Assembly (NCBI RefSeq): GCF_007830055.1
Contig: NZ_VLLE01000002.1
Location: forward strand, 941,953-1,005,952
Direction of reading: 5' to 3'
From: Lacibacter cauensis
GTDB taxonomy: Bacteria; Bacteroidota; Bacteroidia; Chitinophagales; Chitinophagaceae
Length of the DNA stretch: 64,000 bases
Shown here in pieces: positions 14 through 30,965 of the stretch. The notes beneath the pieces were generated by a model, which was given only the letters and a program-made list of their open reading frames with translations, did no database searches and was not told where the DNA came from. Every line of letters begins with the position of its first letter. Within the stretch, counting starts at the first letter, position 1. Made by a program: the position numbers and the translations under genes.

Positions 14-1366
14 TTATTTTTTCGACAGCTGCAGCGAACTATCGTTGATCTCAAATTTAAATTGATTGAGTAATTGATACATTTCAGCACCGGCTAAAAT
101 AACCGGGCCGTAACCATGTGCGGCAAACACATTCACGGGACGGTGATAGTAAAACGCAGGATCGAAAGCCATACCTGTACCAACACAGGTTCCTTCCACC
201 TGTCCCTGCTTATTTACTTTTGTTGTTACAGCATTCCACGCAAGGATGGCGGTGGGTGCATACGTCATGGCGTCTATCCATCCTTTATTGATTGCATGCG
301 TAATACAATATGCATAAATAGCAGTTGCTGATGTTTCGAGATAAGAATCATTTCTGTCTAACAACTGATGCCAGAAGCCCGTACCATCCTGGTACTGCAT
401 CAAACCATTTACATGAGCTTTGAATTGTTGCAACACAAACGCTCTGCCGGGGTGAGTTTCAGGCAATGCATCCAGCACTTCGCTCATCGTCATCAATGCC
501 CAGCCATTCGCTCTTGCCCAACGAAACTCCGGATGATGCTCCATGCTTTCCACCCAGCCATGCATGTACACGCCTTTCTCTTTATTGAACATGCGTTTGG
601 TATACAACTGCAACTGGTTTACTGCATCATCATAATATTTTGTTTCACCGGTAAGTTTACCCATAAACGCCATTGTTGGCACGCCCATGTACAGATCATC
701 TAACCACAAGGTATTTGCCTGCGGACGCATGCGTGCCAGGGTGCCATCTTTTAAACGATATTCTTTGTTGATGACATAATCAGATAAATGATCAATGATG
801 GGACGAAGATTATTACTCAAGCCACTGTTCTGTGCTTTGATCATCGATGCACACACAGCACCGCCATCATCCAGTGCATGTGGATTGATGGGTTGATTTA
901 ACAGCTTTGTTTTATTAATGTACTCAGCAGAAAACTTTTGTTTTACCGCAGGGATCCATTTTGCCAGGAAATCATATCTCGCTTTTACATATGCTGCATA
1001 TTTCTGATCGCCGGTTGTTTCTGCTGCCCGTTGAAAAGCAGAATACGTAACGCCCCACTCATAACTGGTTAAACGAAAATCACCCTGCTTCAAAACCGTG
1101 TTTGTATCCAATGCATTTACATCGGTTACAGCAGCTCCTGTTTTTTTATTCATCATCTCCGCAGGCGTAACTGCATTGAGATAATTATAGACTCTATCCA
1201 CTACAGCCTTCACACTTTCTTTTGTTGGCGCACCGTATGGCGAGGGATAATCCACCTTCATCGCATGTAACGGCGTGGTTACATCATTTTGTTTGGGTTT
1301 GGGTTTAACCTGTGCGTTGGCTGCTGCTGCCGTAAGAAGGGCAGCAAAAAGAAGATTTTTTTTCAT
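14..1366 (-). CDS. GH105 unsaturated rhamnogalacturonyl/glucuronyl hydrolase, secreted
   Basis: Predicted to remove the 4,5-unsaturated uronic acid that polysaccharide lyases leave on oligosaccharides. The 450-residue protein starts with a signal peptide (MKKNLLFAALLTAAAANAQ). It has the GH88/GH105 pattern: a W-L-D-D-L-Y-M motif with the likely catalytic Asp near residue 223, and a W-A-R-A-N-G-W segment lining the (alpha/alpha)6 barrel. I chose the ATG at 1366; a TTG nine bases upstream would add three residues ahead of the signal peptide. It lies downstream of the SusC/SusD operon but behind a terminator, with its own promoter near 1398-1431. It belongs to a different subtype from the GH105 at 22486. 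Family assignment is confident; the exact sugar (GlcA or GalA, linked to rhamnose or another residue) cannot be read from sequence. Confidence 0.88.
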   Translation of the reverse strand: MKKNLLFAALLTAAAANAQVKPKPKQNDVTTPLHAMKVDYPSPYGAPTKESVKAVVDRVYNYLNAVTPAEMMNKKTGAAVTDVNALDTNTVLKQGDFRLTSYEWGVTYSAFQRAAETTGDQKYAAYVKARYDFLAKWIPAVKQKFSAEYINKTKLLNQPINPHALDDGGAVCASMIKAQNSGLSNNLRPIIDHLSDYVINKEYRLKDGTLARMRPQANTLWLDDLYMGVPTMAFMGKLTGETKYYDDAVNQLQLYTKRMFNKEKGVYMHGWVESMEHHPEFRWARANGWALMTMSEVLDALPETHPGRAFVLQQFKAHVNGLMQYQDGTGFWHQLLDRNDSYLETSATAIYAYCITHAINKGWIDAMTYAPTAILAWNAVTTKVNKQGQVEGTCVGTGMAFDPAFYYHRPVNVFAAHGYGPVILAGAEMYQLLNQFKFEINDSSLQLSKK

Positions 1367-1397
1367 AACAAACAATTCGGTTTCGTAGTAATTCCGC

Positions 1398-8025: not shown

Positions 8026-9717
8026 TTATTGATAAATCATTGTGCCATCCGGACGGAAACGAGGTAAAACCTGGTCCTGATCAATCGGAATGAAATGAAT
8101 CATATCAAGGTTATTATTGTTCTGCGTTCCACTCAATGCAGTAATGCGGATAATTTGTTGCTTCGTTGTGGTAAACTCAATTACGCCCACCTGGCGTGCA
8201 GCCCAAAGGCTACTCGTGTTTTCGGTGTAACGTTTCCAGCCAATTGCTTCCAGTTCGGAATCGGTACCGGCAGGTCGTGTATCTGTAAAGTTCATCGTAC
8301 GTTGCATAATGGTACCGTTTACACTTACCTGGCAAAGCATGTTTGAACTGCTTGATTGTTTTTGCTGACGGTAACAAACCCATACTTTGTATTTACCTTT
8401 TACAATCGGTGGCGTGCGCATCTCCCACCATGGCGGACGGTTAGGTAAGCCTAACGGCACCATGTTGATATCTGCATTATAAGCATAGTTGGTAATACTG
8501 CTTGCTGCGGAGTAAGTATACTGCAGGAAGTTTGTACTTGCCAATGGGCCCCAACCCCAGTAATGATCTTTAATTGGCTGATCGGCTTCTGTAGCACGGC
8601 TGAACGTATAATTGGCTTTTTTATAATAAGCAGGCAGCTTTTTAATTTCATCAAAAGAAGAAACGTCCCAATACAGAGCAGTTGGTTTGCGGAACTTCAC
8701 CATAAAATGTGCAGCAGCATCGTGCCATACACCATTGGTTGCAGCAATATCACTTTTATCACGATTTAATACGACTCCTTTTTCCAATACACCATTAAAC
8801 TCGTCCTGGTTAAGAAGTACCTGTTGATCGATCAACTTAATACTTACTACCTCCTGTGGTTGTAATGTTTCATGTGTTGGTGTAGAAATAATATCGCCAA
8901 GGAATTTCAATCCTTGTGAAATATGGTAAGCTACATAAATGTGTAAGCTGTCATTTGCATTCGTAGGGCTGCTTGTTTTTGAATACTTCGCTTTTAATGC
9001 TGCATAGGTTACAAAACCACTATCGGCTAAAGCTCTATTGCTTTCTGCAAACACCGTCATCCAGCGTTTAGACGTATCGCTGTCTACTGTATTCAGTTTT
9101 GTATAGAAACCGGTTTCTTTTAACGCCTGTACAAAAATGGAATAATCCGGATTTTCTTCCAGCTGCTGTGCAATGGTTTTCACAGCTGGCTTCAATACGT
9201 TATCAATAACATGAATAATACCATTGCCCACACGTACGTTCGAACGCAATACTGTACCCTGCCTGTTAATTAAATAACTTGACACACCGTTTTTATTGGT
9301 AACCGATGTTACAAGGTATTGACCGTACATGGTAATAACAGGCAGCTTACCATCTGTAAACGAGTTGGTATACACCGTATCGCTTAACAGATGCAAACGC
9401 ACCATGTCTTTTAAAGTGTTGAGATCGGCAGCGTCAACAGAAGCAGCTCCCAAACCGGCTAAGTACGTTTTTACACCACTGTTTGTTGGCGCAAAACAGG
9501 TATAAGCCCCGTATGCATTCAAAAAAGCAGCGTTGCCAGTTCTTTCGAGAATCTGACGGAACAACGAAAAGGAATCAAGATTTTTATCCAGATAACCTAC
9601 AATATTTACGTCACCCGTTGTAGATTCCTCGATCTTGATTTTTCTACAGCCCGGAGCCGACATGAGCAGGGCTATAATAGCAACCGAGCCTAAGGCAAGA
9701 ACAATGTTTCTTTTCAT
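8026..9717 (-). CDS. FAS1 domain lipoprotein with C-terminal carbohydrate-binding-like domain
   Basis: A 563-residue lipoprotein (lipobox A-P-G-C, Cys24, then R-K-I-K-I-E-E). Two FAS1 domains are visible: about 40-175 (Y-T-C-F-A-P-T-N-S-G; I-I-H-V-I-D-N-V) and about 185-340. The last 200 residues form a separate domain with W-G-W-G-P and ending L-D-M-I-H-F-I-P, matching the end of the neighbouring 480-residue protein. It lies 14 bases after a SusD gene and 30 bases before the next FAS1 gene. In the PUL this is the position of a surface glycan-binding protein. FAS1 proteins are otherwise known for adhesion, so a cell-matrix role is an alternative. Confidence 0.8.
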   Translation of the reverse strand: MKRNIVLALGSVAIIALLMSAPGCRKIKIEESTTGDVNIVGYLDKNLDSFSLFRQILERTGNAAFLNAYGAYTCFAPTNSGVKTYLAGLGAASVDAADLNTLKDMVRLHLLSDTVYTNSFTDGKLPVITMYGQYLVTSVTNKNGVSSYLINRQGTVLRSNVRVGNGIIHVIDNVLKPAVKTIAQQLEENPDYSIFVQALKETGFYTKLNTVDSDTSKRWMTVFAESNRALADSGFVTYAALKAKYSKTSSPTNANDSLHIYVAYHISQGLKFLGDIISTPTHETLQPQEVVSIKLIDQQVLLNQDEFNGVLEKGVVLNRDKSDIAATNGVWHDAAAHFMVKFRKPTALYWDVSSFDEIKKLPAYYKKANYTFSRATEADQPIKDHYWGWGPLASTNFLQYTYSAASSITNYAYNADINMVPLGLPNRPPWWEMRTPPIVKGKYKVWVCYRQQKQSSSSNMLCQVSVNGTIMQRTMNFTDTRPAGTDSELEAIGWKRYTENTSSLWAARQVGVIEFTTTKQQIIRITALSGTQNNNNLDMIHFIPIDQDQVLPRFRPDGTMIYQ

Positions 9718-14579: not shown

Positions 14580-16808
14580 TTATTTATAGCGCAGGTAGTT
14601 ATCGATAAGATGAATCGTACACCTTGTGCTTAATTGGTTACTTGATGCTGTTGTTACGCCTGCAGATCTACTCTTCATATCATTTAAAACGATAGTGTTT
14701 GGCGTAGTGTTGTTTACGAAGATGGTTGAAGGATCGCCGTTCGGGAACTTGTACAAAGTTTCGAATGTGCCACTCTCCTGCCCGTCTGTAGCAATATTTT
14801 TCTTATTGAGAATATGATAGTAAATGAACGCATCAACCTGCTCACGTTCCTGCGAGGTTAACGAAGTATACTTCGGTACTTTGTTCGGTGCAGTTCCTGT
14901 GCCGGGCAAATCACCAGCATTTACAGCAGCAAGAATTGCCGTGTTGCTGGGTATAAAGAACGTGTAGAACGAACCGGAAGCAACCTGCACAATTTCGCCT
15001 GTTGTTGTATTAAAAATGGGCGATGCTTTCAGGTAATTCCAGAAATAATTGTACGGCGAGGTAGTTGGAGTACCTAATGTTTCAATATGCTTACCAATTG
15101 TTTTTTCGCTGAATTCAAGAATACGATCGATATAATAAACCGTACCATTCTTTGCAGTTTTCTTGTCAACAACAGTTGCCTGATTACCGGCATCGTAATT
15201 TCCGGCAGCTGCAATTTTGTTATTATCGAATTTTAAGAACTCACCTGAATACGACATAGCCACACCTGGCGATGTAAGCGAAGTAATATCTCTTCCGGGC
15301 ACTACGTGCATGTTTAAAATACGTTGCAGACGAACCAATGCCGAAGAGCCGGTTAACTGCGTACCGCCACCTGGCGGAGTATAACGCCATTGTTCGTTCA
15401 CGTTATTACTTACTGTTGCATCGGCATAATAGCCGGCAGCATTAAACGCCGCATTGCTGATCAGAAACAATGTATACTTCTGGTAAATATTCGAAATCTG
15501 GAATTTCAAATCAAGATTCAACAGACTCGTCATGATGGAATAATTCGGATTGAGATAAGCCTTTCCGTACACGCTGCTGAACACATTAGCTTCCTGTACT
15601 TTATTGGTACCATAAAACACACCGTTACTCAACACCTGTTTATCTACTACATCAGTGGCGGGATTAAAGCGGGCTTCTTCACCAACCGAATTGTAAGTAG
15701 TTGCAAACTTAGATGGCCAAACCACGGTACGCCACATGTGTGCATTCATAAAATCATAAATCACATTTACAGGTAACGCATCGATACTTGGATAATACTC
15801 AAGCAATACCGTATTGATATAATTGAGTAAAGCTGCATTTTCCGGAACAAACATGGTATAGCTGTCTGCCTGGCCATCGTTATCCTGCAACTTCAAAAAG
15901 TTTTCATTATTTGGCGAAAATGCAAGACTGTTGTTGTACACTTTTGTAAATACATCTGCAGGTGTGCCGTAAATAGCTTTGTAATTTTGCGATACAGTTT
16001 GGTTTAATACATACTGCACCAAAAATTTATCCATTAATTTTTTAAACTCGCTGTAACGTGGATTACTGCCAATATACTGATCGATACTTGGCAATGCAGT
16101 AATAACACGATCTACAATGTGGATAACGCCGTTCTCGGCAGCAATATCTTTTTCTACCACTTTTGCCTGTGCAACATTAAAGCCTGTATAAGTTGAAGTT
16201 GGATAAAAATAATTGTAATCAGCAGCAGTTAATGATTTGCCGCTCATATACGTAGTTTCGAAAATGGGGATGTATTTGTTATTATTATCGGCATCAACAT
16301 AAAACAAAGTACCGGAGTTGTTACGGTTTGATGCGATTGCTTTAATATCCTGACCGCTTAAATTTTTTGTTTCATAAATGCCGGTATAATTAGCCGTACG
16401 TCTGCGGAAAGCTGCCCCCTCTACCCAGCCGAGGTTGCTTTGGTAATCGGAAATCCGCTCCTGCTTAAACGCATTGTACACCAAACTGTAGGTAACAATT
16501 TTACGTGCAGATGCTGAATCGATAGCATCTACGCTGGCAATATTGTTTTGTGTAAGGTAAAGTGTTACGGCAGAATCGTGCGGCACAAAAATTGTCCAGT
16601 AACCTGCGGCTGAAAGTGTTTGTTTGTACCCTGCTTTGTCAATCAGTTTTAAAAACTGGGTAAAGCGGCCTTTCGCCTGCAATTGCTGATAAATAGGTTG
16701 CTCAAGAGAATCGGGCCTTTTATAAAATTCATCGAATTTCTTTTGGCATGCAAACGTTATAGTTGCCAAGGCAAAAAAAAGGCAAAACTGTTTGATAAGC
16801 TTAAACAT
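14580..16808 (-). CDS. Multi-FAS1 domain lipoprotein, first gene of the SusCD/FAS1 operon
   Basis: A 742-residue lipoprotein. I start it at the ATG at 16808, which places the signal peptide at the N terminus (lipobox T-F-A-C, Cys21, then Q-K-K-F-D-E); the upstream ATG at 16823 would add five residues. About four FAS1-like repeats can be followed, each with a Y-T-x-F-x-P-x-N/D-x-A segment: W-T-I-F-V-P-H-D near 75, Y-T-M-F-V-P-E-N near 320, Y-T-L-F-L-I-S-N near 450, Y-T-F-F-I-P-S-N near 620. Several repeats close with a V-I-H-I-V-D-R-like strand. It is promoter-proximal, which suggests it is the most abundant product. Role is inferred: surface adhesion or glycan capture feeding the SusC/SusD pair behind it. 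Confidence 0.82.
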   Translation of the reverse strand: MFKLIKQFCLFFALATITFACQKKFDEFYKRPDSLEQPIYQQLQAKGRFTQFLKLIDKAGYKQTLSAAGYWTIFVPHDSAVTLYLTQNNIASVDAIDSASARKIVTYSLVYNAFKQERISDYQSNLGWVEGAAFRRRTANYTGIYETKNLSGQDIKAIASNRNNSGTLFYVDADNNNKYIPIFETTYMSGKSLTAADYNYFYPTSTYTGFNVAQAKVVEKDIAAENGVIHIVDRVITALPSIDQYIGSNPRYSEFKKLMDKFLVQYVLNQTVSQNYKAIYGTPADVFTKVYNNSLAFSPNNENFLKLQDNDGQADSYTMFVPENAALLNYINTVLLEYYPSIDALPVNVIYDFMNAHMWRTVVWPSKFATTYNSVGEEARFNPATDVVDKQVLSNGVFYGTNKVQEANVFSSVYGKAYLNPNYSIMTSLLNLDLKFQISNIYQKYTLFLISNAAFNAAGYYADATVSNNVNEQWRYTPPGGGTQLTGSSALVRLQRILNMHVVPGRDITSLTSPGVAMSYSGEFLKFDNNKIAAAGNYDAGNQATVVDKKTAKNGTVYYIDRILEFSEKTIGKHIETLGTPTTSPYNYFWNYLKASPIFNTTTGEIVQVASGSFYTFFIPSNTAILAAVNAGDLPGTGTAPNKVPKYTSLTSQEREQVDAFIYYHILNKKNIATDGQESGTFETLYKFPNGDPSTIFVNNTTPNTIVLNDMKSRSAGVTTASSNQLSTRCTIHLIDNYLRYK

Positions 16809-16849
16809 AAATCTACAGTTCATTTAATTTATCGGATGTGTTCGATGGA

Positions 16850-17166: not shown

Positions 17167-19122
17167 TTAATAGCCTGGGTTTTGCATGGCCTGCTTTTGA
17201 GAAGCAGTTAATGCCAGTCCGCCCATTTGAATACCATCAAGGAAGGTTTGTGGTATCGGGCGCAACAGATGCTTGTCCTGGATATTTGGAGCAGCATCGG
17301 GGTTAAAGGCTTTCGCACGGGCAATTAATGTTTTTGTGCGGGACAGATCCTGCCAGCGTAAGTATTCACCTGCCAACTCACGTGAACGTTCGTTTAACAG
17401 GAAACACAGCATTCTGTCGTATGTGCTTGAATAACCGAGCAGGTTGATGATGTATTCATCTGCCGTAGGTAAAGTTGCAATATTGGTTACAGCTAAGCTT
17501 GCCGAAGCAGCCGTAGTAACAGGAATATTGTTTGATTCGTAGTACGAATTTTCCGGGAAGAATGAAGGAGGAATTGACTGCGGAACACTGCTTGGCGCTG
17601 CGCCGCCATCGTAGTAAACCGAACGGCTTTCGCCATTTGCATACTGTCCTCGCACCCTTACAGGATTGATATACACCAACGCATCAGCATAGGTTCCAAC
17701 ACCTGCTTTTGCCTGGCGGATTTTTGCCTCTGCAGCTATCAGGTATGTTTCTGCCGAACGGGCCAATGTAATATCACGCAAGCCACGTACATCATTAAAA
17801 CCGGCAGTACGTGAACCATCCATAAACTTACTTAATGAAGGGAAGCGGCGTGTATCGTTCCAGCCACCATCAGCAGTAACACCATTTTTATACGCAACGT
17901 ACACATGTGGAATTGTTTTACCTGTTGTGCTGTAAACAACTGAGTTGTTCAATACGTTGGCAGAAAAACGGGTATCGCCGGGTTGGTTAATTACATACAT
18001 GATACCTAAATCGCCCTGTACATAACCGCTGGTAGGCGCATTGGCATTTACTTTATGCTTTGTACGGAAAGTTTTCCAGAAACGGGAGTCGTTTACCATG
18101 TCGTAGATCCTGTACATAAAGAATGTTGGAGATAAACGACTGAACGGACGATCACCACTTAAATCACGCTGCATCTGAGCAATATCTTCATAGCGTGAAA
18201 CGTAATATAAATGTTGGGTATTTTGACCACTTGCAGTTAAGTCTGATGTAAACTGTGCAGACAAAATCAGCTCACGCAGATTTTCATTTGCACCATTGGG
18301 TGCGGTATAACGCCACAGATCGCCGTAGTTTGGAGCCAACGGATGGTTGGCGATTACCGCATCGCACAAAGGAATAATAGCTGCAAGGTCGGCCGCTTTT
18401 GTTGAACCATTCCATGAATCATTGATTTCGCTCGTGCGGCTTAAATATGCTTTTGCTAAAAAGTGTGCTGCAGCATCCTTGGTAATTCTTGCCGGCGAAC
18501 CAACATTGCCTAACAGGTTATACGCCTGTGTAAAGTCTGCAATAATTAAATCGTATACGTCTTTTGGAGTTGCACGTGTAAACTCCAATTCTACTTTTGT
18601 AAACGGCTCCTTGGTAATAGGTACAGCACCAAACTGGCTTACCAAACGCAGGTAATTATATGCTCTTAAAAAATAACCTTCCCCTAAGGCTGTTTTTTTA
18701 ATGGCATCGGCAGTAGATGTGCTGGCGTTTGCGTTCTGAATAATAAGATTGGCATGACCGATGCCTACATACAAATTATCCCACTGCGCTTCTGCTGGTA
18801 CAGTATTTCCGTTATTGGGCGTAACAAACGAACCGAAGGTATTACCATAAGAATTGTACATGCCGTTCGAAGGATCACCCCCTACTCTAAACTCATCGGT
18901 ACCATAACACATATTGGAAAAAGCCATTTCACCATTAAATGGTGTTGCAAACACCTGGTGGTATGCACCATTTACCAGTTGTTGTATACCGGCATCCGTT
19001 TTGTAAAACTCCAGATCCCTGGAGGTTTTCAACGTTTCATCTAAGAAACTCTTTTTGCAAGATGAAGCAAGCGAAATAATGAGTACGCTTACGATTGCTA
19101 TATTTAATATTCTATTTTTCAT
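17167..19122 (-). CDS. SusD/RagB-like nutrient-binding lipoprotein
   Basis: A 651-residue partner of the SusC gene 20 bases upstream. Lipobox A-S-S-C with Cys22, then K-K-S-F-L-D. Recognisable SusD features include the F-Y-K-T-D segment after the lipid anchor, helical repeats with Y-F-L-R-A-Y-N-Y-L-R-L-V, and the C-terminal L-L-N-E-R-S-R-E-L-A-G-E-Y-L-R-W-Q-D-L. It is somewhat longer than the other two SusD proteins and belongs to a different branch. Last gene of its operon. Confidence 0.93.
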   Translation of the reverse strand: MKNRILNIAIVSVLIISLASSCKKSFLDETLKTSRDLEFYKTDAGIQQLVNGAYHQVFATPFNGEMAFSNMCYGTDEFRVGGDPSNGMYNSYGNTFGSFVTPNNGNTVPAEAQWDNLYVGIGHANLIIQNANASTSTADAIKKTALGEGYFLRAYNYLRLVSQFGAVPITKEPFTKVELEFTRATPKDVYDLIIADFTQAYNLLGNVGSPARITKDAAAHFLAKAYLSRTSEINDSWNGSTKAADLAAIIPLCDAVIANHPLAPNYGDLWRYTAPNGANENLRELILSAQFTSDLTASGQNTQHLYYVSRYEDIAQMQRDLSGDRPFSRLSPTFFMYRIYDMVNDSRFWKTFRTKHKVNANAPTSGYVQGDLGIMYVINQPGDTRFSANVLNNSVVYSTTGKTIPHVYVAYKNGVTADGGWNDTRRFPSLSKFMDGSRTAGFNDVRGLRDITLARSAETYLIAAEAKIRQAKAGVGTYADALVYINPVRVRGQYANGESRSVYYDGGAAPSSVPQSIPPSFFPENSYYESNNIPVTTAASASLAVTNIATLPTADEYIINLLGYSSTYDRMLCFLLNERSRELAGEYLRWQDLSRTKTLIARAKAFNPDAAPNIQDKHLLRPIPQTFLDGIQMGGLALTASQKQAMQNPGY

Positions 19123-19142: not shown

Positions 19143-22100
19143 TTAAAAACCTGCATTAATACCAACTGTAAAGCCACGGTTAGAGAACATTGACACCGCA
19201 TCCATATCCATAAACTTAATTTGAGAATAAAGCATAAACGGATTGGCTGCCTGTACATATACACGCAGATTTTGCATGTGCATGGCTTTTACTGCTTTGC
19301 TGTTAAAATTGTAAGCAGCTGAAATATTACGCACTTTTAAGAAAGATGCTTTTTTATAACCAAGGGAAGCTGAATAGTTATCACCAGAGCCTACAGAATA
19401 AAATGGCTTTTGGTATTCTGCATCCTGATTATTATCGGTCCAGTAATCAATTTTACGTTGATTACCTCTTGCTGTTTGTGCTTCACCTCCTGTGTTATAC
19501 CAATAGTTTAAACGACCATAAATGAAAAATGACAATTCAATCCCTTTGTAGTTGAATGTGTTTGTAAAACCAACAACCCAACGTGGTCGTGTATGACCAA
19601 TTACTACACGATCATTATTGGCATCAATTTTATTATCACCATTTTGATCTACAGGACGTACTTGTCCGGGAGTAAACGTGTTTCCGTTTGCTGCAAACTT
19701 CTTCAGTGTAGGAGTATCTGCATACTGCCACAAACCGCCTGATGCAAAACCATAAATTACACGTATGGGCTGACCAATAAATACGTTGTTGTTGATATCG
19801 TTTTGTTTACCATTTGCACCTTCATCAATACGATCTTTCTGCCAGCTGGCATTGATAATACTTGTCCACTGGAAATTCTTCTGAGAAATATTCACTGTAT
19901 TGATATTCACATCAACACCACGGTTTGATGTTTGCCCCAGGTTGGTAAGCGTTCTTACGTAGCCTGTTACTGTTGGTAACAATTGTGGGAAGATCAGGTC
20001 TTTGGTGATCGATGAATAAACATCTACAGTACCTGAAATTCTGCTCTTTAAAATACTGAAATCAACACCTAAGTTGTACTGTGTTGTTTTTTCCCAACGC
20101 AGATTCGGGTTACCCAATTGCGTCGTTGGCAAATTTGCAGGTAATACACTTCCGCCATTCGCATAAAAGTAAGGAACACCAAAGGTTAATGTTTGGTAAG
20201 GTCCTATTGATGAGTTACCGGTTACACCTACACCTGCTCTAAGTTTTAAGTCGTTAATAATGCTTGCATTTTGCATGAATTTTTCACGACTGATGCGCCA
20301 TGCAAACGCAGCACTTGGGAAATAATCACCTTTATAACCTTCGCCAAGCTGCGATGCAGCATCATAACGTATAGAGGCTGTTAACAAATAACGCTCATCA
20401 AAACCATAGTTAACACGAGCCATTAAACTCGATAACTGACTTTCTGTTAAAGGCGACACACGATTGATGGTGAGGTTTGTTGATGGCAACACACCGTTGT
20501 TTAACTCGTACCATTTCTGTGCAGCAAACGGAATACCTGTGCCAACCAAACGGTTTACAGGGTTTGCCACGTACTTTGTTGCGCTTTGTAATAATGTAAC
20601 GCCGAAACTATGTTTCTTAATTTCCTTGTTGTAGTACAGCAGGTTATCGAGTGTCCATGAGTAGGTTTTTGCCTCTTGCAATGAAGCTCCATTAATACCA
20701 CTGCTGGCAGCAGACTGTCCATCGATGTATACACCGTTGGTATAGTTGGAAAAATCAGGACCAAAATTGAAGCGGTATTTTAAGCCACTTAAGAAAGAAT
20801 TGATCTTACCGAAATCAATCTGTGCGTTCATGCTACCAAAAGCACGTAATGTAGTGCGTTGATCCTGCGTAAATTTATCTTCACCAATTACAGTTTTGAT
20901 TGCAACATCACCACCGGGATAGAGAATACGGTTACCAGCAGAATCGTAAGGAACAGCCCATTTAAACAAACCTCTGGCAGAATTATAAATGCTGTTTGCA
21001 GGTGAACCTACAAACGAACCGATTACAAGATTCGATTGGCCGAATTCCTGGATGCCATACGTTACATTAAAATTAGCCCCCATCGAAAACCAGTCTGTTG
21101 CCTGTACATCCACGCTGGTTTTTCCTGAATAGCGTGTAAACTTCTGTCCAATAGAAGTTCCTCTGTTATTCAAATATCCGAAAGAGCCATAGGCTTTAAT
21201 TTTATTGGTACCACCGCTAACACTGATGGTATTATCGGTTGTAATACCCGTTTGTGTAACCAAACCTGTCCAATCGGTATTGCCCACTTTTGAACCATCC
21301 CATGTACCACTTGCCCAGCCTTTCGCAATATTTTTCCACGAATCAGGATCTGAAGTTGCCAAGAAAATATCACGATCATTGGCAATTGTAGGAGCATCTC
21401 CACGAGGACGGCCGCTTGGGTTACTGTAATAAACAGCCCATCGACGAAAATCAATGTATTCCGAAGCACTCATAATCGGCGCCCAGTCACGTACCGTTTC
21501 AAAGGTTGTTGAATTGAAAAAGTTTACTTGCGTTTTACCTGCTTTACCTTGTTTGGTTGTAACAATTACAACACCGTTTGCTCCTCTTGAACCATAGATA
21601 GCAGTGGCAGATGCATCTTTTAATACGTCGATCGACTCAATATCGTTCGGGTTCAGGTATTCGATACCTCCAGTGGCTAAAGGAATATTATCCACTACAT
21701 ATAAAGGATCGTTCGTTGCATTTAAAGAACGTTCGCCACGAATACGGATTGAACCCAATGTACCCGGACGTTCATTCGAAGTAATATCCACACCGGCAAC
21801 TTTCCCTTGCATTGCCTGCAAAGCATTATCAACCGGCCTTGAACGTATTTCTTTTTGATTGATGCCCGATACAGAGCCGGTTACATCTTTCTTTTTTACC
21901 GATGCATAACCGATTACCACCACATCTTCCAGGTTAGAAGCGCCGGCAGCAAGTGTTACATTAATTGTACTTCTGTTATTGATCTCAATTTCCTGATCGG
22001 TAAATCCAACCGATGAAATAACCAAAACCGATTTGCCCGAAGGCGCATTTAATTCGAAACTACCATCGGTTCCTGTAGTAGTGCCCACCGTTGTTCCTTT

Positions 22101-22250
22101 CACCAACACACTGGCACCAGACACAGGTTTACCTGCATCATCAGATACTTTACCGGAAACTTTAAATGTGGTTTGTGAAAAAGAAGCGGAGACTAACAGA
22201 CATGACAGTAATAGCAATACGCTGGAGCGTATCCATTTTTTTTCTTTCAT
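19143..22250 (-). CDS. SusC/RagA-like TonB-dependent transporter
   Basis: A 1035-residue TonB-dependent transporter: signal peptide ending S-A-S-F-S-Q, carboxypeptidase-D-like domain (about 30-105), canonical V-V-I-G-Y-A-S-V-K-K-K-D-V-T-G-S-V motif near 110, plug with K-D-A-S-A-T-A-I-Y-G-S-R-G-A-N-G, then a barrel ending G-I-N-A-G-F. It is the most canonical of the three SusC proteins. It starts a two-gene operon with SusD and is divergent from the hydrolase operon at 22486; both share a 235-base control region containing the LacI-like motif. Confidence 0.95.
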   Translation of the reverse strand: MKEKKWIRSSVLLLLSCLLVSASFSQTTFKVSGKVSDDAGKPVSGASVLVKGTTVGTTTGTDGSFELNAPSGKSVLVISSVGFTDQEIEINNRSTINVTLAAGASNLEDVVVIGYASVKKKDVTGSVSGINQKEIRSRPVDNALQAMQGKVAGVDITSNERPGTLGSIRIRGERSLNATNDPLYVVDNIPLATGGIEYLNPNDIESIDVLKDASATAIYGSRGANGVVIVTTKQGKAGKTQVNFFNSTTFETVRDWAPIMSASEYIDFRRWAVYYSNPSGRPRGDAPTIANDRDIFLATSDPDSWKNIAKGWASGTWDGSKVGNTDWTGLVTQTGITTDNTISVSGGTNKIKAYGSFGYLNNRGTSIGQKFTRYSGKTSVDVQATDWFSMGANFNVTYGIQEFGQSNLVIGSFVGSPANSIYNSARGLFKWAVPYDSAGNRILYPGGDVAIKTVIGEDKFTQDQRTTLRAFGSMNAQIDFGKINSFLSGLKYRFNFGPDFSNYTNGVYIDGQSAASSGINGASLQEAKTYSWTLDNLLYYNKEIKKHSFGVTLLQSATKYVANPVNRLVGTGIPFAAQKWYELNNGVLPSTNLTINRVSPLTESQLSSLMARVNYGFDERYLLTASIRYDAASQLGEGYKGDYFPSAAFAWRISREKFMQNASIINDLKLRAGVGVTGNSSIGPYQTLTFGVPYFYANGGSVLPANLPTTQLGNPNLRWEKTTQYNLGVDFSILKSRISGTVDVYSSITKDLIFPQLLPTVTGYVRTLTNLGQTSNRGVDVNINTVNISQKNFQWTSIINASWQKDRIDEGANGKQNDINNNVFIGQPIRVIYGFASGGLWQYADTPTLKKFAANGNTFTPGQVRPVDQNGDNKIDANNDRVVIGHTRPRWVVGFTNTFNYKGIELSFFIYGRLNYWYNTGGEAQTARGNQRKIDYWTDNNQDAEYQKPFYSVGSGDNYSASLGYKKASFLKVRNISAAYNFNSKAVKAMHMQNLRVYVQAANPFMLYSQIKFMDMDAVSMFSNRGFTVGINAGF

Positions 22251-22357: not shown

Positions 22358-22485
22358 CTGACAATCGGCTTTTATACAGGATAAAGCGTCGAAAACAACT
22401 CTAAGTGTATCAGTTTCAGGATGCAGCAGGATGCCCTTCCAGTGTTTATATACTATCATTGAATTTTAAAAATAACATTGCTGCT

Positions 22486-23616
22486 ATGCTGAAAAAAATC
22501 GTTTGTCTGCTGTTGATGGGCTCCTTCTTATACCCTGCAACTGCGCAAAAGTTACCTGCCAAAAAAAGGATTTTAAACACGTTAAGGCTAACCAACCAGT
22601 ACTTTATGAACAAGTGGCCCGATGCGGGTAAAACCATCTTCACCAACATTGAACGGCCCAGCAACATCTGGACAAGAGCCGTTTATTACGAAGGTTTGAT
22701 GGCACTTTACAGCATCGATAAGCAACAAGCTTACTACGATTATACGCTGCAGTGGGGCGAAAAACACAAATGGGGTTTGCGTGGCGGTATTAAAACACGC
22801 AATGCCGATAACCAATGTTGCGGCCAAACATATATTGATATGTACCTCATCGATAATAAGCGCAACCCGGAGCGTGTGAAGGATATTAAAGCATCCATCG
22901 ATTCGATGATGGCAACAAGTAAAATTGACGACTGGAACTGGATTGATGCACTGCAAATGGCGATGCCTGTATTTGTAAAACTAGGCAACCTGTATAACGA
23001 GCCTGCTTATTTTCAACGCATGTACGAGATGTATGCGTACACCAAAAACAAACACGGTGAAAAGGGTTTGTACAATCCTGCAGAAAAATTATGGTGGAGA
23101 GACAAAGATTTTGATCCTCCATATAAAGAACCAAACGGTGATGATTGCTACTGGAGCCGTGGCAATGGTTGGGTAGTTGCAGCGCTGGCAAAAACACTCG
23201 AGGCTTTGCCAAAAACCGATCCACATTACAACGAGTACCTCCAGGATTTTAAAGATATGTGTGCAGCCTTACTGCCTCTGCAACGTACAGATGGTTATTG
23301 GAATGTAAGCCTCAACGACCCCAATCATTTTGGCGGCAAAGAAGTATCGGGTACCTCGCTCTTTATCTATGGCTTTGCATGGGGTATTAACAATGGTATT
23401 CTTGATGCAAAAACATATAAAACTTCAATAGCAAAAGCATGGAATGCCATGTGCAAAGAAGCTGTACACAAAGATGGCAAACTGGGCTATGTACAAGGTA
23501 CAGGCAAAGAACCAAAAGATGGTCAGCCTGTTTCGTATACAAGCACACCCGATTTTGAAGATTATGGTCTTGGATGCTTTTTATTAGCAGGCACAGAGAT
23601 CTACAAAATGAAATAA
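22486..23616 (+). CDS. GH105/GH88-type unsaturated uronyl hydrolase, secreted
   Basis: A 376-residue enzyme with a signal peptide (L-L-L-M-G-S-F-L-Y-P-A-T-A-Q). It should cleave the unsaturated uronic acid from lyase-made oligosaccharides. Motifs: D-N-Q-C-C-G-Q-T-Y-I-D-M-Y, W-I-D-A-L-Q-M-A-M-P with the likely catalytic Asp154, and Y-W-S-R-G-N-G-W. I use ATG 22486; the GTG at 22405 would put 27 residues ahead of the signal peptide. First gene of the plus-strand operon, seven bases before the GH2 gene. It is clearly different from the 450-residue GH105 at the other end of the locus, so the two probably act on different linkages or in sequence. Confidence 0.9.
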   Translation: MLKKIVCLLLMGSFLYPATAQKLPAKKRILNTLRLTNQYFMNKWPDAGKTIFTNIERPSNIWTRAVYYEGLMALYSIDKQQAYYDYTLQWGEKHKWGLRGGIKTRNADNQCCGQTYIDMYLIDNKRNPERVKDIKASIDSMMATSKIDDWNWIDALQMAMPVFVKLGNLYNEPAYFQRMYEMYAYTKNKHGEKGLYNPAEKLWWRDKDFDPPYKEPNGDDCYWSRGNGWVVAALAKTLEALPKTDPHYNEYLQDFKDMCAALLPLQRTDGYWNVSLNDPNHFGGKEVSGTSLFIYGFAWGINNGILDAKTYKTSIAKAWNAMCKEAVHKDGKLGYVQGTGKEPKDGQPVSYTSTPDFEDYGLGCFLLAGTEIYKMK

Positions 23617-23623
23617 TTTCTGA

Positions 23624-26572
23624 ATGAAAAAACTCCTTTTAATTGCAGCAATGAACATTGCTGCAATTTTTTCTTTTGCACAACGCAGCAAATACAATTT
23701 TAATCATCAGTGGAAGATTTTTGTGGGCGATGATCCGGCTGCACCTGCACCAACCTTCGATGATTCGAAATGGAAACAGGTGACACTCCCTTATGCGTGG
23801 AACGAAGATGAAGCATTTAAAAAAGACATTGTTGATCTCTCCACAAACATCGCCTGGTACCGAAAGAAGTTCAAACTACCATCAACAGCCAAAGGACAAA
23901 AAATATTTCTTGAGTTTGAAGGCGCACGGCAGGCTGCCGCAGTATATGTAAACGGTGTATTTGTAGGTTTACACGAAAATGGTGTGATGGCTTTTGGTTA
24001 CGACATCAGCCAGTTGCTCAAATTCGGTAACGAAGAAAATGTTGTTGCTGTACGTACCGACAACAGCTGGGAGTATCGTGAAAAAGCAACCAACACCAAA
24101 TACCAATGGATCGACAGGAATTTTAATGCCAACTACGGAGGACTCTGCAAAAATGTATTGCTGCATGTAACAGGCAACGTTTATCAAACATTACCGCTGT
24201 ATAACAATCTCGGCACAACAGGAACTTATATTTATGCAAAAGACTTTGACATTCAAAACCGGAAAGCAACCATTGTTGCATCTTCCGAAATAAAAAATGA
24301 ATCGGGCAAAATACAAACAGTTACCTATGCAGTTAAGCTGAAAGACATGAACGGTATTGTAGTAAAATCATTCTCCTCTGCTTCTGTTACTGTTCAACCA
24401 AACGAAACAAAAACAATCAGTGCATCAGCAGCAGCATCCAATTTAAACTTCTGGAGCTGGGGTTTTGGTTATTTGTACGATGTAGAAACAAGTTTACTTT
24501 TTAATGGAAAAGTTATTGATGCAGTTGTAACCAAAACAGGCTTTCGCAAAACAGCATTTAAAGATGGCATGTTTTACCTCAATGATCGTGTACTACAGGT
24601 GCACGGTTATGCACAACGCACCAGTAACGAATGGCCTGCTGTAGGCATGAGTGTACCTGCCTGGTTAAGCGATTACAGCAATAATTTGATGGTACAAAGC
24701 AACGGTAATCTTGTACGCTGGATGCACATTACTCCATGGAAACAGGATGTTGAAAGCTGCGACCGTGTTGGCTTACTGCAGGCTATGCCGGCTGGTGATG
24801 CAGAAAAAGATGTTACAGGTATCCGATGGGAACAACGCAAAGCGGTGATGCGTGATGCCATTATTTACAACCGCAACAATCCCAGTATTATTTTTTACGA
24901 ATGCGGTAACGAAAGCATCAGCGAAGATCATATGAAGGAAATGAAAAGCATTCGTGATGCTTACGATCCGTTTGGCGGCAGAGCTATCGGCAGCAGGGAA
25001 ATGCTCGACAGTAAAACAGCCGAGTATGGCGGTGAAATGCTGTACATCAACAAAAGTGCACACATACCGATGTGGGCCATGGAATATTCAAGAGATGAAG
25101 GATTGCGCAAATATTGGGATGATTATTCTCCACCCTATCATAAAGATGGCGATGGACCTTTGTACAAAGGCGAGCCTGCAAAAATTTACAATCGCAACAT
25201 GGAATCGCATGCATTGGAAAACATTGCACGCTGGTACGATTACTGGAGAGAACGGCCCGGCACAGGCAAACGTGTAAGTTCAGGTGGCGTAAATATTATT
25301 TTTTCCGAAACCAACACCCATCATCGTGGTGCAGAAAATTACAGACGTAGCGGTGAGGTAGATGCTTTACGTATCACCAAAGAAAACTTTTATGCACACC
25401 AGGTAATGTGGGATGGATGGGTAGATGTGGAGAAACCACGCATTCACATTATTGGTCATTGGAATTACAGCGATACAACGGTGAAAGATATGTTTGTGAT
25501 TTCATCGGCAGAAAAAGTTGAACTGTTTGTAAATGGTAAATCCTTAGGCTTTGGCGAACAGAGCAACCGCTTCCTGTTTACATTCAAAAAAATCAACTGG
25601 CAGGCAGGTACTATCAAAGCGGTTGGCTATAATGCAAACGGCAAGCAACTCTGCAGTACACAAAAAACAACGGCTGGTACACCGGTAGCACTACGGTTAA
25701 CATCCATTACACATCCAAAAGGTATGCAGGCTAATGGTCATGATTTGGCATTGGTGGAAGTGGAAGTAGTTGATGCGCAAGGTGATCGTTGCCCCGTTGC
25801 ATTTAACATGATCAATTTTCGACTGGAAGGCGAAGCTGAATGGCGTGGAGGCATGGCGCAGGGACCGGATAATTATATTTTATCGAAACAACTACCTGTT
25901 GAATGTGGTGTAAACAGAGTGCTCATCCGTAGCACCACAAAAGCAGGAACCATCAAACTCATTGCCACAGCAGATGGATTAAGTACAGCAAGTACGCAGC
26001 TGCAATCAATTGCTGTTCCTGTAAGCAACGGCCTCAGTACACAATTACCATCGTACGGTTTAAAAGGCAATCTGCAACGAGGTCCAACTCCTTTAACACC
26101 GTCTTTCAAACAAACAAGAAAGGCATTAACGATCGTAAAAGCAAATGCAGGCTCGAACAGCGACAGCGCTTTTGCCAGTTTTGATGACAATGAACTTACC
26201 GATTGGTATAACGATGGCAATCTATCTACTGCATGGATCGAATATGAATTAGACGCAACTGCAACAGTAAGTGAAGTAACACTTAAGCTGAATAATTTCC
26301 GTACACGCTCCTATCCCATTCGCATATTAGTTGATGGAAAGGAAGCTTTTAACGGTAACACAACTAGCAGCCTTGGTTACTGTACTATTTCGTGCAAACG
26401 TTTGACCGGTAGTAAAGTGCGGATTGAATTGGTAAAATCAAGTAATTTAACCGGCGAAACTTCTACAGAGGTATCGGGTAAAAAATTAGATGACGGTGTA
26501 ACCCGCAATGATGCAGCCAGCAAAGGCCGACTTAGTATTATTGAAGTGGAGATTTACGAACCAATAAAATAA
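23624..26572 (+). CDS. GH2 family glycosidase with DUF4982-like and discoidin-like domains
   Basis: A secreted 982-residue exo-glycosidase (signal ends I-F-S-F-A-Q). N-terminal sugar-binding domain (about 25-190), immunoglobulin-like domain, then TIM barrel. The acid/base is predicted as Glu430 in C-G-N-E-S and the nucleophile as Glu562 in F-S-E-T-N. A DUF4982-like domain follows the H-W-N-Y segment near 610, with F-V-N-G-K-S-L-G. The C-terminal region (about 835-980) resembles an F5/8 type C / CBM32-like beta-sandwich. GH2 enzymes of this shape include beta-galactosidases and beta-glucuronidases from algal and plant glycan loci; the sugar removed is uncertain. Family call is firm. Confidence 0.9.
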   Translation: MKKLLLIAAMNIAAIFSFAQRSKYNFNHQWKIFVGDDPAAPAPTFDDSKWKQVTLPYAWNEDEAFKKDIVDLSTNIAWYRKKFKLPSTAKGQKIFLEFEGARQAAAVYVNGVFVGLHENGVMAFGYDISQLLKFGNEENVVAVRTDNSWEYREKATNTKYQWIDRNFNANYGGLCKNVLLHVTGNVYQTLPLYNNLGTTGTYIYAKDFDIQNRKATIVASSEIKNESGKIQTVTYAVKLKDMNGIVVKSFSSASVTVQPNETKTISASAAASNLNFWSWGFGYLYDVETSLLFNGKVIDAVVTKTGFRKTAFKDGMFYLNDRVLQVHGYAQRTSNEWPAVGMSVPAWLSDYSNNLMVQSNGNLVRWMHITPWKQDVESCDRVGLLQAMPAGDAEKDVTGIRWEQRKAVMRDAIIYNRNNPSIIFYECGNESISEDHMKEMKSIRDAYDPFGGRAIGSREMLDSKTAEYGGEMLYINKSAHIPMWAMEYSRDEGLRKYWDDYSPPYHKDGDGPLYKGEPAKIYNRNMESHALENIARWYDYWRERPGTGKRVSSGGVNIIFSETNTHHRGAENYRRSGEVDALRITKENFYAHQVMWDGWVDVEKPRIHIIGHWNYSDTTVKDMFVISSAEKVELFVNGKSLGFGEQSNRFLFTFKKINWQAGTIKAVGYNANGKQLCSTQKTTAGTPVALRLTSITHPKGMQANGHDLALVEVEVVDAQGDRCPVAFNMINFRLEGEAEWRGGMAQGPDNYILSKQLPVECGVNRVLIRSTTKAGTIKLIATADGLSTASTQLQSIAVPVSNGLSTQLPSYGLKGNLQRGPTPLTPSFKQTRKALTIVKANAGSNSDSAFASFDDNELTDWYNDGNLSTAWIEYELDATATVSEVTLKLNNFRTRSYPIRILVDGKEAFNGNTTSSLGYCTISCKRLTGSKVRIELVKSSNLTGETSTEVSGKKLDDGVTRNDAASKGRLSIIEVEIYEPIK

Positions 26573-26623: not shown

Positions 26624-28051
26624 ATGCGCATGTATCGGTTGCTAATCATATTTTTTTGTTGCTTGTGCCAGTACACAACTGCACAAAAACTGCAGTACAG
26701 CAAAGGCACAGTTAAAGATCCTGGCGGTGGCACCTTAAAGCTGTTGGCAAATGTTAACGGCTATCATCATTTAATTTATTTCGGCTATGCCAAAAAGCCT
26801 GTTGTTTATGTATTCAACAACCAATTGCATCTTGAAAGCAAAAAAGAATTAAATATTCCTATTGCTGAAAATTGCGATGTTCGTTTACTGCAATTAAAAG
26901 ATTATTATGTTTTATATACACATACTGACAGGCCTTCCGTTCACCGGTTAATGAAAATAAACAGGGATGGTGTTACAACAGATATTTCGAACCTCTTGAA
27001 CAAACCGGCAGATTCGCTATGGAACAGAAGCAAAGCTACTTTTCAGTTATTCAACCACAATGACAGTCTTTATTTAATCGCTCATTCGTACCACGAACAG
27101 CTGAAGCAAATAAAAACAATAATTGTAAAACCTAAAGCCGACCCCGGCACATCCGCTTTTACACAACTCTTCTTTCCATTCGATTTTGGATATGATCAAC
27201 TGAAGGAAGTAACCTTGTTGAAAAACCAATTACTGATTGTAAAAACCAGCAAAGATGAAGAGGGGAAAAATATCCTCTCCATTATTAAAACAGATATTGC
27301 AACAGGTAATCAGTTTTCGAAACAATTTGAAAGTGGCAAATATGTATACCACAATCCAACACTCAGGTATAATACTGCCGACTCTAGTGTATTTGTTTAC
27401 TCGTTATTACGCACTCCGTTTGGTTACAGAGGAGCAAGGCCCGAGTTGTTCATGGCAAGATTGAACAACACTTTGAACGAAATAAGTCCTGTACAAACCT
27501 TACCCAATATTTTCCATGGTAATGCAGCATCAGCATTTTTGGTAGAGAAAAAACATTCGTCGGGATGGATGTGTTTCACCTACGATCTGCAGTCATTTGG
27601 CCGAGGCAGCAGGCTTACTGCAAATCAGTTTAGTCCTTACATGGATGAAGCACGCCGATTTTCGGATAATTATTACAACCCCTTCGTGTATGACGAAAAT
27701 CAACCTACAGCAGTTTCGATGACCTTACTAAATAATCATCTGGAAAGAAAGGCAGACAGCATTGTAAAGAACAATGGAAACTACTATAAAATTCATCCTG
27801 CACCTTATGCACAATTTGTATTGCAAAACACTGCCTATCTTTTGCTAACAGAGGAGCTGGTTGCAAAAAAAAAGGGTTTGCTGTTGGTTTATCCGGGAGA
27901 AAATAATTACTTCGAAACAGTTCCCTTAAGGGTACAAAGCAACTACGATTTCCTGTTGCCACAACTGCAGGTAGTCGAAAACAAATACATCCTTGTTCCG
28001 TATATCGATAAAAAAGAATTGGGATTAATGAAAGTAACGTTTACCAATTAA
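26624..28051 (+). CDS. Secreted protein of unknown family, tandem paralogue A
   Basis: A 475-residue protein with a signal peptide ending Q-Y-T-T-A-Q and no recognised domain. The pattern of short strands and repeated hydrophobic-charged alternation (for example V-Y-V-F-N-N-Q-L, Y-Y-V-L-Y-T-H-T) suggests an all-beta fold, perhaps a propeller (inference). It is clearly related to the next gene: both share Q-K-L/I-Q-Y, N-G-Y-H-H-L-I, P-A-D-S-L-W-N, L-F-M-A-R-L-N and a C terminus of G-L-M-K-V-T-x-T-N. It lies between GH2 and sulfatase genes in the same operon, so a role in handling the same glycan is likely. ATG 26624 or 26630 may start it. Confidence 0.75.
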   Translation: MRMYRLLIIFFCCLCQYTTAQKLQYSKGTVKDPGGGTLKLLANVNGYHHLIYFGYAKKPVVYVFNNQLHLESKKELNIPIAENCDVRLLQLKDYYVLYTHTDRPSVHRLMKINRDGVTTDISNLLNKPADSLWNRSKATFQLFNHNDSLYLIAHSYHEQLKQIKTIIVKPKADPGTSAFTQLFFPFDFGYDQLKEVTLLKNQLLIVKTSKDEEGKNILSIIKTDIATGNQFSKQFESGKYVYHNPTLRYNTADSSVFVYSLLRTPFGYRGARPELFMARLNNTLNEISPVQTLPNIFHGNAASAFLVEKKHSSGWMCFTYDLQSFGRGSRLTANQFSPYMDEARRFSDNYYNPFVYDENQPTAVSMTLLNNHLERKADSIVKNNGNYYKIHPAPYAQFVLQNTAYLLLTEELVAKKKGLLLVYPGENNYFETVPLRVQSNYDFLLPQLQVVENKYILVPYIDKKELGLMKVTFTN

Positions 28052-28090
28052 CTATCACGTTCGGAACGACCATGAACAATTAACAGCTTT

Positions 28091-29530
28091 ATGAAAAAAT
28101 ACTCGTTGCTTTCCTTTTTTCTGGTTTCAGTATGTACAATTACACATGCCCAGAAAATACAATACTGCAAAGGAATAGTAAAAACGCCTGGTAAAGGTTT
28201 TGTGCGGTTGTTGGCCGGAGTAAACGGCTATCATCATTTAATTCGATTTTTACCGGAAAGTAAACCTCAAATTTTTCTTTTTAACAAAGAGCTGGTTTTA
28301 GAATCTATTATTGAACTGAATACAACAATTCATGAAAATACAGAGGTAAAAATCATTCAGTTTGAAAATGTGTATTGGTTTTATACACACACGATGAAAA
28401 CCAGTATACATCAATTACTTAAAATAGATGGCAATGGCATAATCACTGACCACTCTGACCTTTTTAAAAATCCTGCTGATTCTCTTTGGAACAAAACAAC
28501 TTCATCGTTCAATCTTACTAAAATCGGGAGTAACTTATTTGTAATAATTAATAAATATTTCGAACAGTCAAAAACTGCAAAATTTTTATTTATAAAAATT
28601 GAACCAGGAAAAAGCACATCCTTTCAAAACGAAATATCTATTGCATTTGATATCGAAAACGAAGAGTTAAAAGACATTGTCTTATTTAAAGACAAATTGT
28701 TTGTTTTAAAAACAGGAAAAGACTCCAAAGGGAACAATATACTATCTGTTTTAAAATCAGATAGTACCAATAACAAGTCTTATACAAATCAATTTGAAAG
28801 CGGAAAATACTTATTTCTTAATCCTTCATTCAGATTTGGCAAAACCGATTCATCTGTATTTATATACGCCATGATAGCTCCGCCATACGGCTTCAAAGGC
28901 GACAAACCGAGTTTATTTATGGCCAGACTCAACGAGTCGTTGAACGAAATTGTACCGGTTAAAATTCTAAAAGACGCTTTACCGGAAACAGCACTTTCGT
29001 CATTTATTATTGAAAAAGAAAACTCTGCCGGCTGGATGTGTTTTTCACAATCGCAAAAAGAATATTCAAATTATTCATCCGGCTATTTTACATCACCAAC
29101 ATCTTTATCAACTTCGTATAACTCAGCGAATGCTGCCCCATACAACTTCAATTTACCAACAGCAATCGCAGGTCAGTCAAACCCAAAAGAAATATCCTTT
29201 ACCGTCTTAAATGACCGTCTGGAAAAAGTAACCGACAGCCTGATTAAAAACAATGGAAAGAGTTTAAAAATTGACCCGCTGGCATATGCCTCGTTTGTTT
29301 TAAACGATCAGCCTTACCTTATTTTAAAACAAAATCTAACAAGGAAAAGTAAGGCGTTGATTCTATTAACACCTAACGAAAGCAATGCATTACAAACAAT
29401 ACAAATACGCTCATTCGATCGTTACGAATACTTACTTTCGTTAATGCAAACAGTAACTGGCAATGCCTTTATTGTTCCATTTACAAACAAGAAAGAAATG
29501 GGATTAATGAAAGTAACGCTTACCAATTAA
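28091..29530 (+). CDS. Secreted protein of unknown family, tandem paralogue B
   Basis: A 479-residue secreted protein (signal ends T-I-T-H-A-Q), 39 bases after paralogue A and roughly 40 percent identical by eye along its length. It has the same conserved blocks (N-G-Y-H-H-L-I, N-P-A-D-S-L-W-N, G-W-M-C-F, F-M-A-R-L-N, G-L-M-K-V-T-L-T-N). It is visibly richer in A and T and in Lys/Asn codons than paralogue A, and has a 10-15 residue Ser/Tyr/Asn-rich insertion near 320. Tandem duplication with divergence suggests two related ligands or a heterodimer. Function is unknown. Confidence 0.75.
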   Translation: MKKYSLLSFFLVSVCTITHAQKIQYCKGIVKTPGKGFVRLLAGVNGYHHLIRFLPESKPQIFLFNKELVLESIIELNTTIHENTEVKIIQFENVYWFYTHTMKTSIHQLLKIDGNGIITDHSDLFKNPADSLWNKTTSSFNLTKIGSNLFVIINKYFEQSKTAKFLFIKIEPGKSTSFQNEISIAFDIENEELKDIVLFKDKLFVLKTGKDSKGNNILSVLKSDSTNNKSYTNQFESGKYLFLNPSFRFGKTDSSVFIYAMIAPPYGFKGDKPSLFMARLNESLNEIVPVKILKDALPETALSSFIIEKENSAGWMCFSQSQKEYSNYSSGYFTSPTSLSTSYNSANAAPYNFNLPTAIAGQSNPKEISFTVLNDRLEKVTDSLIKNNGKSLKIDPLAYASFVLNDQPYLILKQNLTRKSKALILLTPNESNALQTIQIRSFDRYEYLLSLMQTVTGNAFIVPFTNKKEMGLMKVTLTN

Positions 29531-29546: not shown

Positions 29547-30965
29547 ATGAAACCTGTTTATTCTTTATTCCTTCTGGCATTTTTAACCGCATCAGCTACG
29601 GGTACAGCTCAAACAAAACAGCCCAACATCATTTTCATTTTTGCCGATGATCTGGGTTATGGTGAGCTTGGTTGTTATGGTCAGCAGAAAATTGAAACAC
29701 CCAATCTTGATGCGTTGGCTGCAAAAGGAAAAAAGTTTACACAGTTCTATTCGGGCACTTCTGTTTGTGCACCATCCCGTGCTTCGTTGATGACGGGGTT
29801 GCATACAGGCCACACGCCTATTCGTGGCAACAAACAATTTGAACCCGAAGGACAAACACCATTGCCTGCATCAACCAAAACCTTTGCAAATTATCTGCAG
29901 CAAAATGGTTATGCTACTGCGTGCTTTGGCAAATGGGGAATGGGCTTTAATCAAAACAGCGGTGATCCGAATAAGAAAGGTTTTGATTTATTCTATGGGT
30001 ATAACGATCAAAGCCTGGCACATGATTTCTTTCCGCCATATTTATGGAACAATCATACAAAAGTTGATCTGTCTGTAAACAAAAAATACGATTCCGTTTA
30101 TTCTGCAGCACTCATTCAGCAGCAAGCTGTACAATACATCAATCAACAGAATAACAAACCGTTCTTCATGTATCTCTCCTACACATTACCACATGGAGAC
30201 GTCATTGGTCCGCACGATAGTTTATACAACTACTACAAACAAAAATTCAACGAACAACCACTCACCGGTGCTGCTTTAAAAACAAGACCACATAACATGC
30301 AGCCCGAGCCTTATCCGCATGCACAGTTTGCGGCCATGGTTGGCCGGCTGGATATGTATGTGGGAGAAATTGTAAAAGCAATTGAAGCAAAAGGCTTGGC
30401 CGAAAATACACTCATCATCTTCAGCAGCGATAACGGACCTCACAGAGAAAACGGTGGTGATCCGGAGTTCTTTAACAGCAATGGTATTTACCGTGGTATT
30501 AAACGTGATTTGTACGAAGGCGGCATGCGTGTACCTTTTATTGCGTACTGGCCAAACAAAATAAAACCGGCTGTTGTACAAAAGCCCTTTGCGTTGTGGG
30601 ATATGTATCCAACTTTCCTGGAACTTGCAAAAATTCCTGTTGCAGAAAAGATCGATGGCATTTCAATTGTACCAATCTTGCTTAATAAACGCAAACAAAA
30701 ACAACACGACTATTTCTATTGGGAGTTTCATGAAAACAATGGTCGACAAGCTGTATTGTGGGGCAAATGGAAAGGCGTTCGGTTAGATGTAAACAAGAAT
30801 GATGATGCGCCTGTTGAGCTGTACGATCTATCAACTGATCCATCGGAACAAAACAATCTCGCAGCCCAATACCCTGCTGTTGTGCAAAAGATCAAACAAC
30901 TGATGAAAGAAGCGCATGTCAGCAACAGCGATTGGCCATTGCTGAAAAGTGAGTTTACCAAGTAA
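29547..30965 (+). CDS. Secreted Cys-type sulfatase (arylsulfatase family)
   Basis: A 472-residue sulfatase with signal peptide (A-S-A-T-G-T-A-Q). The S1-type signature C-A-P-S-R (Cys74 to Arg78) is present; the Cys must be converted to formylglycine by an anaerobic sulfatase-maturating enzyme, not encoded here. Metal-binding Asp pair in I-F-A-D-D-L-G-Y-G near the N terminus, and S-S-D-N-G-P-H near 300. It likely removes sulfate esters from sugars released by the GH105 and GH2 enzymes of the same operon. Last gene of the plus-strand operon, with the cytidine deaminase gene converging 4 bases away. Confidence 0.92.
   Translation: MKPVYSLFLLAFLTASATGTAQTKQPNIIFIFADDLGYGELGCYGQQKIETPNLDALAAKGKKFTQFYSGTSVCAPSRASLMTGLHTGHTPIRGNKQFEPEGQTPLPASTKTFANYLQQNGYATACFGKWGMGFNQNSGDPNKKGFDLFYGYNDQSLAHDFFPPYLWNNHTKVDLSVNKKYDSVYSAALIQQQAVQYINQQNNKPFFMYLSYTLPHGDVIGPHDSLYNYYKQKFNEQPLTGAALKTRPHNMQPEPYPHAQFAAMVGRLDMYVGEIVKAIEAKGLAENTLIIFSSDNGPHRENGGDPEFFNSNGIYRGIKRDLYEGGMRVPFIAYWPNKIKPAVVQKPFALWDMYPTFLELAKIPVAEKIDGISIVPILLNKRKQKQHDYFYWEFHENNGRQAVLWGKWKGVRLDVNKNDDAPVELYDLSTDPSEQNNLAAQYPAVVQKIKQLMKEAHVSNSDWPLLKSEFTK

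Follow-up and report, generated by a model that had tools for sequence, protein, structure and literature searches.

Two adjacent genes, A and B, in a 64,000-nucleotide stretch of the genome of Lacibacter cauensis (Chitinophagaceae; the genome is called G000 and the whole stretch the window) were found to encode exported paralogues which, judged by their sequences, appear to form a family without an existing model. The link of this family to glycan operons with GH105, GH2 and sulfatase genes is firm, and a non-catalytic role in glycan handling is given about an even chance. The two genes are:

26624..28051, plus strand: family member A, 475 amino acids, exported, predicted beta-propeller, Gly46-x-His48-His49
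28091..29530, plus strand: family member B, 479 amino acids, 42% identical to A

Both are intact open reading frames (ORFs), with 206 of 486 aligned columns identical between their products (E 5e-144), in agreement with a preliminary description of this DNA which had proposed two exported paralogues of about 477 residues. The four blocks quoted there (N-G-Y-H-H-L-I, P-A-D-S-L-W-N, L-F-M-A-R-L-N and G-L-M-K-V-T) occur in A and B alike. By eye, the N-terminus of each carries a hydrophobic stretch up to A-Q, and a lipobox was seen by eye in neither.

The absence of a known family for the pair was upheld in database searches. Neither A nor B gave a match above cut-off in Pfam or NCBIfam (B alone gave matches, far below cut-off), and no match was obtained among PDB sequences with A alone or with the A1 profile, a search which did not include B alone. 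The propeller which the preliminary description had proposed to look for is likely from structure prediction, at low confidence; a second prediction, headed by the G010 protein, was worse in its middle part. No description of the family was found in the parts surveyed of the literature on GH105, GH2, sulfatases and ulvan, on Lacibacter polysaccharides, on propeller glycan-binding proteins and on GH145, and literature searches for DUF6427 and for Chitinophagaceae with GH105 and hypothetical protein were without result.

The family is present in 7 of 14 genomes of the genus, and the same seven carry a close GH2, at 78-100% identity; in the remaining seven, GH2 matches are distant or absent. As the genomes are related, this co-occurrence does not represent seven independent events. 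The order GH105-GH2-family-sulfatase with a single family copy is found in G001 (Lacibacter luteus), G007, G013, G003 and G010, and in G004 only a C-terminal piece adjoining the sulfatase was found, at a contig edge; G000 is the only one of the 14 with a second copy (B) in such an operon. A search of 394 genomes of the bacterial family gave a match in at least 28, with strong matches outside the genus in G017, G301, G248, G381, G206, G299 and G358, and searches by genus added G958, bringing the outside members to eight. In these wide searches up to four candidates were scored per genome (up to five in the phylum draw described below), the counts being lower bounds; G028 and a second G010 match, found in other searches, are absent from the 394-genome listing. 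Further weak matches include G249, G859 and G966. Among 396 genomes of the order, at least one match lies outside the Chitinophagaceae, a weak one in G859 (E 1.5e-4), and when genome contigs were scanned with one peptide pattern, only two relatives came up. A GH88/105 gene adjoins the family gene in G248, G301, G206 and G299, and in G381 SusC/D genes are nearby with GH39 further off. The reading frame of the G958 member (L116:9001-10400) is broken, by decay or assembly error, and a GH88/105 gene was not seen nearby.

Ten of the weak matches were looked at and proved to be a different gene, not of the A/B branch. This Chitinophagaceae gene of a DUF6427/purQ locus, for which no published name was found, is here labeled CORE. 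It was matched in all 11 Chitinophagaceae genomes listed from a draw of 296 genomes of the phylum, and in at least 20 of the 296 overall (256 non-matching genomes are not listed by name). In 11 CORE loci a DUF6427-like gene was always present, purQ was present in nine (not in G017 and G028) and a kup-type transporter gene in nine, the two loci without it being those of both genomes of the window's genus; purQ and kup were named from sequence, and the DUF6427 assignment comes from a single match that fell below cut-off. With these counts, a kup/purQ locus common to all CORE genes was rejected. The G000 CORE gene (G000:C5:306457-307998) adjoins DUF6427-like and purQ genes, without kup, and gave no NCBIfam match; three CORE relatives gave no Pfam match above cut-off.

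Comparison of 13 A/B-branch members (alignment A3) with 11 CORE proteins by HHalign gave 97.2% (E 4.5e-11) over columns 4-217, and on this alignment the A/B family is a diverged relative of CORE over its N-terminal 200 residues. The C-terminal half lies outside the HHalign span and was aligned by MAFFT only. The CORE proteins, of about 500-550 amino acids, resemble A and B in length, in the export signal and in the start of the mature protein (A-Q-x-I/L/V-x-Y-S). In the MAFFT alignment the closing strand is also similar, and a variable loop precedes the C-terminal part. However, CORE occupies another locus, whereas A and B sit in a glycan operon and not by DUF6427-like or purQ genes, and CORE is better conserved (73% between G000 and G010, against 44% for A). 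The two branches separate with full tree support.

A conserved histidine motif, as had been anticipated, distinguishes the A/B branch. Gly46, His48 and His49 are invariant in the 13 rows of A3, whereas His-His occurs in none of the 11 CORE rows. A3 does not include the C-terminal piece of G004, the G358 member, which is divided between two contigs, or the G958 member with its broken frame. The G358 and G958 members have Asn-His in place of His-His. Since G017 keeps His-His with no GH88/105 gene seen nearby, the motif tracks the branch more than the locus. His100 and Arg436 were also considered as marks of operon members and set aside, as only G017 departs from them (one case) and G958 keeps His at the presumed position of His100 (by eye).

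When CORE served as outgroup in the tree, B fell with the G010 copy and then with G248 (support 99/98 and 97/93), and A fell with G001 (100/100); without CORE, the support is 98/97 for B with G010 and then 86/89 for G248. This grouping of B means that its divergence does not date from a recent separation from A, and its origin as a recent tandem copy is contradicted by the tree, though the B branch is long. The preliminary description was correct in that B, for which it had suggested fast divergence, is more AT-rich, with a G+C content of 33.3% compared with 38.0% for A and 41.7% for the window (30.9% and 39.2% at third positions in B and A, respectively). Gene B may have arisen either by an old duplication followed by losses or by transfer beside A, the long branches leaving doubt.

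The other genes of the cluster within the window are:

22486..23616, plus strand: GH88/GH105 unsaturated uronyl hydrolase (PF07470, 6e-85; nearest PDB chains 4q88, 5noa and 4ce7)
23624..26572, plus strand: GH2 glycosidase, 982 amino acids (Pfam GH2 domains; nearest PDB chain 6hpd)
29547..30965, plus strand: S1-type sulfatase (PF00884, 6e-62; CAPSR motif by eye; nearest PDB chains 7an1 and 7ana)
19143..22250, minus strand: SusC-type TonB-dependent receptor, divergent from the operon
17167..19122, minus strand: SusD-type protein
14..1375, minus strand: second GH88/105 gene of the cluster (PF07470, 4e-89)

The first of these ORFs spans 22405-23616, with a probable start at the ATG at 22486. The gene order is GH88/105, GH2, A, B and sulfatase, with SusC and SusD upstream in the opposite direction, and the Pfam matches bear out the earlier placement of the pair between GH2 and sulfatase genes, in what is a SusC/D-linked glycan locus. 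As the gaps between GH2 and A, A and B, and B and the sulfatase are only 51, 39 and 16 bases, these four genes are compatible with a single operon. Upstream of the window start the cluster goes on with GH78, GH28, two GH43, GH29, GH106, GH39 and a GDSL esterase, together with two PF14583 (PL22) matches, one above the Pfam cut-off (E 1.2e-17) and one below it (E 8e-5). The glycoside hydrolases and PF14583 matches suggest that the target glycan may be of the pectin type, rich in rhamnose and galacturonate. Three fasciclin-domain genes lie among the SusC/D genes on the minus strand (window 6553-7995, 8026-9717 and 14580-16823), and in G301 a gene downstream of the family member is 51% identical to the third of these and is followed by a SusC-like gene. 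An inward-rectifier-type potassium channel gene was found at window positions 49918-50892.

The preliminary description had left the choice between a new lyase, a new glycosidase and a glycan-binding protein, filling a missing polysaccharide-lyase step. The unrecognized family, its export, the likely propeller and its stable place in glycan operons are in keeping with that choice; the missing step is not, as a PL22 gene lies in the continued cluster just outside the window. PL22 works upstream of GH88/105-type enzymes. A and B gave no match to PF14583, and HHalign against the two local proteins matching it (one below cut-off) gave 0.2%. Elsewhere, other candidate lyases occur near the family. 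In G299 a GH145/PL42-type gene, with 60% identity to its G000 counterpart, lies one gene beyond the adjoining GH88/105, and both G007 and G003 have a heparinase II/III-like gene within a few genes of the family member. A second G000 locus (L100:8656-14363, on G000:C4) carries the GH145-type BNR_4 gene followed by GH88/105-like and GH2-like genes, and a BNR_4 gene is found in 8 of the 14 genus genomes, namely the seven with the family and G002. This unlinked G000 gene was considered as a separate lyase, but it is nearest to GH145 BT3686, at 645 bits where NCBIfam sets its cut-off at 700, and is therefore described only as GH145/PL42-type.

Under the favored reading, A and B would be exported beta-propeller proteins, probably periplasmic, of a family which in Lacibacter and some other Chitinophagaceae may have been recruited into a GH105/GH2/sulfatase/SusC/D glycan operon. 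There they would bind uronate- or sulfate-bearing oligosaccharides, or dock the operon enzymes, in the periplasm and presumably without catalysis. Binding is favored over catalysis because the family evolves fast and its relative lies at a different locus. Nonsynonymous divergence (dN, Nei-Gojobori) between G000 and five relatives was 0.144-0.430 for the family, compared with 0.052-0.097 for GH105, 0.064-0.153 for GH2 and 0.057-0.157 for the sulfatase, and is 2.2-4.6 times that of the neighboring enzymes, pair by pair. The ratio to synonymous divergence (dN/dS) between G000 and G001 was 0.095 against 0.039-0.060 for the enzymes. Several observations weigh against this reading. All dS values are >1 or undefined, near saturation, and the SusD of the cluster is far better conserved (93% identity in L. 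luteus, 87% in G007), so that rapid change is not the mark of every binding protein here. His48, His49, Tyr156, Lys207 and Asp253 are invariant in 13 of 13 rows and could be an active site, as could His100 and Arg436, kept in 12. No GH88/105, sulfatase or SusC/D gene was found in the stretches read around the members of G017, G358 and G958 (around the G358 member, the sequence is cut off by contig edges). The surface glycan-binding proteins of Sus-like systems are lipoproteins; A and B resemble them in export, in being encoded in the operon and in giving no catalytic match, but may differ from them, as no lipobox was seen by eye.

It is somewhat unlikely that the family is instead a new enzyme with a beta-propeller fold, either a polysaccharide lyase or a glycoside hydrolase, cutting at a uronate so that GH105 removes the unsaturated sugar. 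Its predicted fold and repeated pairing with GH88/105 would suit such an enzyme, and GH145 propellers offer a precedent, being described with a lyase center of His, Tyr and Arg and a product that is the GH105 substrate (PMC8406133), and as able to act as lyases whose product is taken by GH105 (PMC8406133, PMC8377490). Candidate counterparts in A are His100 (12 of 13 rows), Tyr156 (13 of 13) and Arg436 (12 of 13), and Gly-x-His-His sets the branch apart from CORE. A and B probably resemble the GH145, PL42, PL25 and PL24 enzymes in having a propeller fold, and are like them paired with GH105 in some loci, but gave no match to PF15892 (BNR_4) at E<=1, and HHalign against two GH145-type proteins (from G000 and G299) gave 0.1%. 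The faster evolution than the adjoining enzymes, the PL22 gene near the locus, the GH145/PL42-type gene of G299, and the retention of His-His in G017 and of His49 in G358 and G958 also argue against catalysis. A fuller version, in which the operon branch would be a new propeller carbohydrate-enzyme family, derived from an envelope protein of the other locus, that gained Gly-x-His-His and makes unsaturated uronate for GH105, is considered improbable.

A general role in the envelope, for instance as a scaffold or chaperone, with a place in the operon that serves convenience of expression rather than glycan handling, is likewise an unlikely explanation. The locus of CORE and its occurrence in all the listed Chitinophagaceae genomes would suit it, as would the members of G358 and G958, which lie mostly among non-glycan genes. 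Against it stand the co-occurrence with GH2 in seven of seven genomes and the GH88/105 linkage across genera. The members of G017, G358 and G958 were also considered as free of sugar genes, a view abandoned when 10 neighbors were scanned: G017 has GH5-type and galactokinase genes three and four genes off, the intervening genes including miaA (by eye) and one for a histidine kinase, and a glucosamine-isomerase/PIG-L gene lies on one G358 contig. These genes, too, speak against a general envelope role.

A and B represent an exported family without a model, associated in the Chitinophagaceae with GH105/GH2/sulfatase operons and related to a conserved gene of that bacterial family at another locus. 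For a group in which many genes of operons lack a model they provide a concrete target, and they may serve as a test case of a propeller from another locus taken into glycan use.
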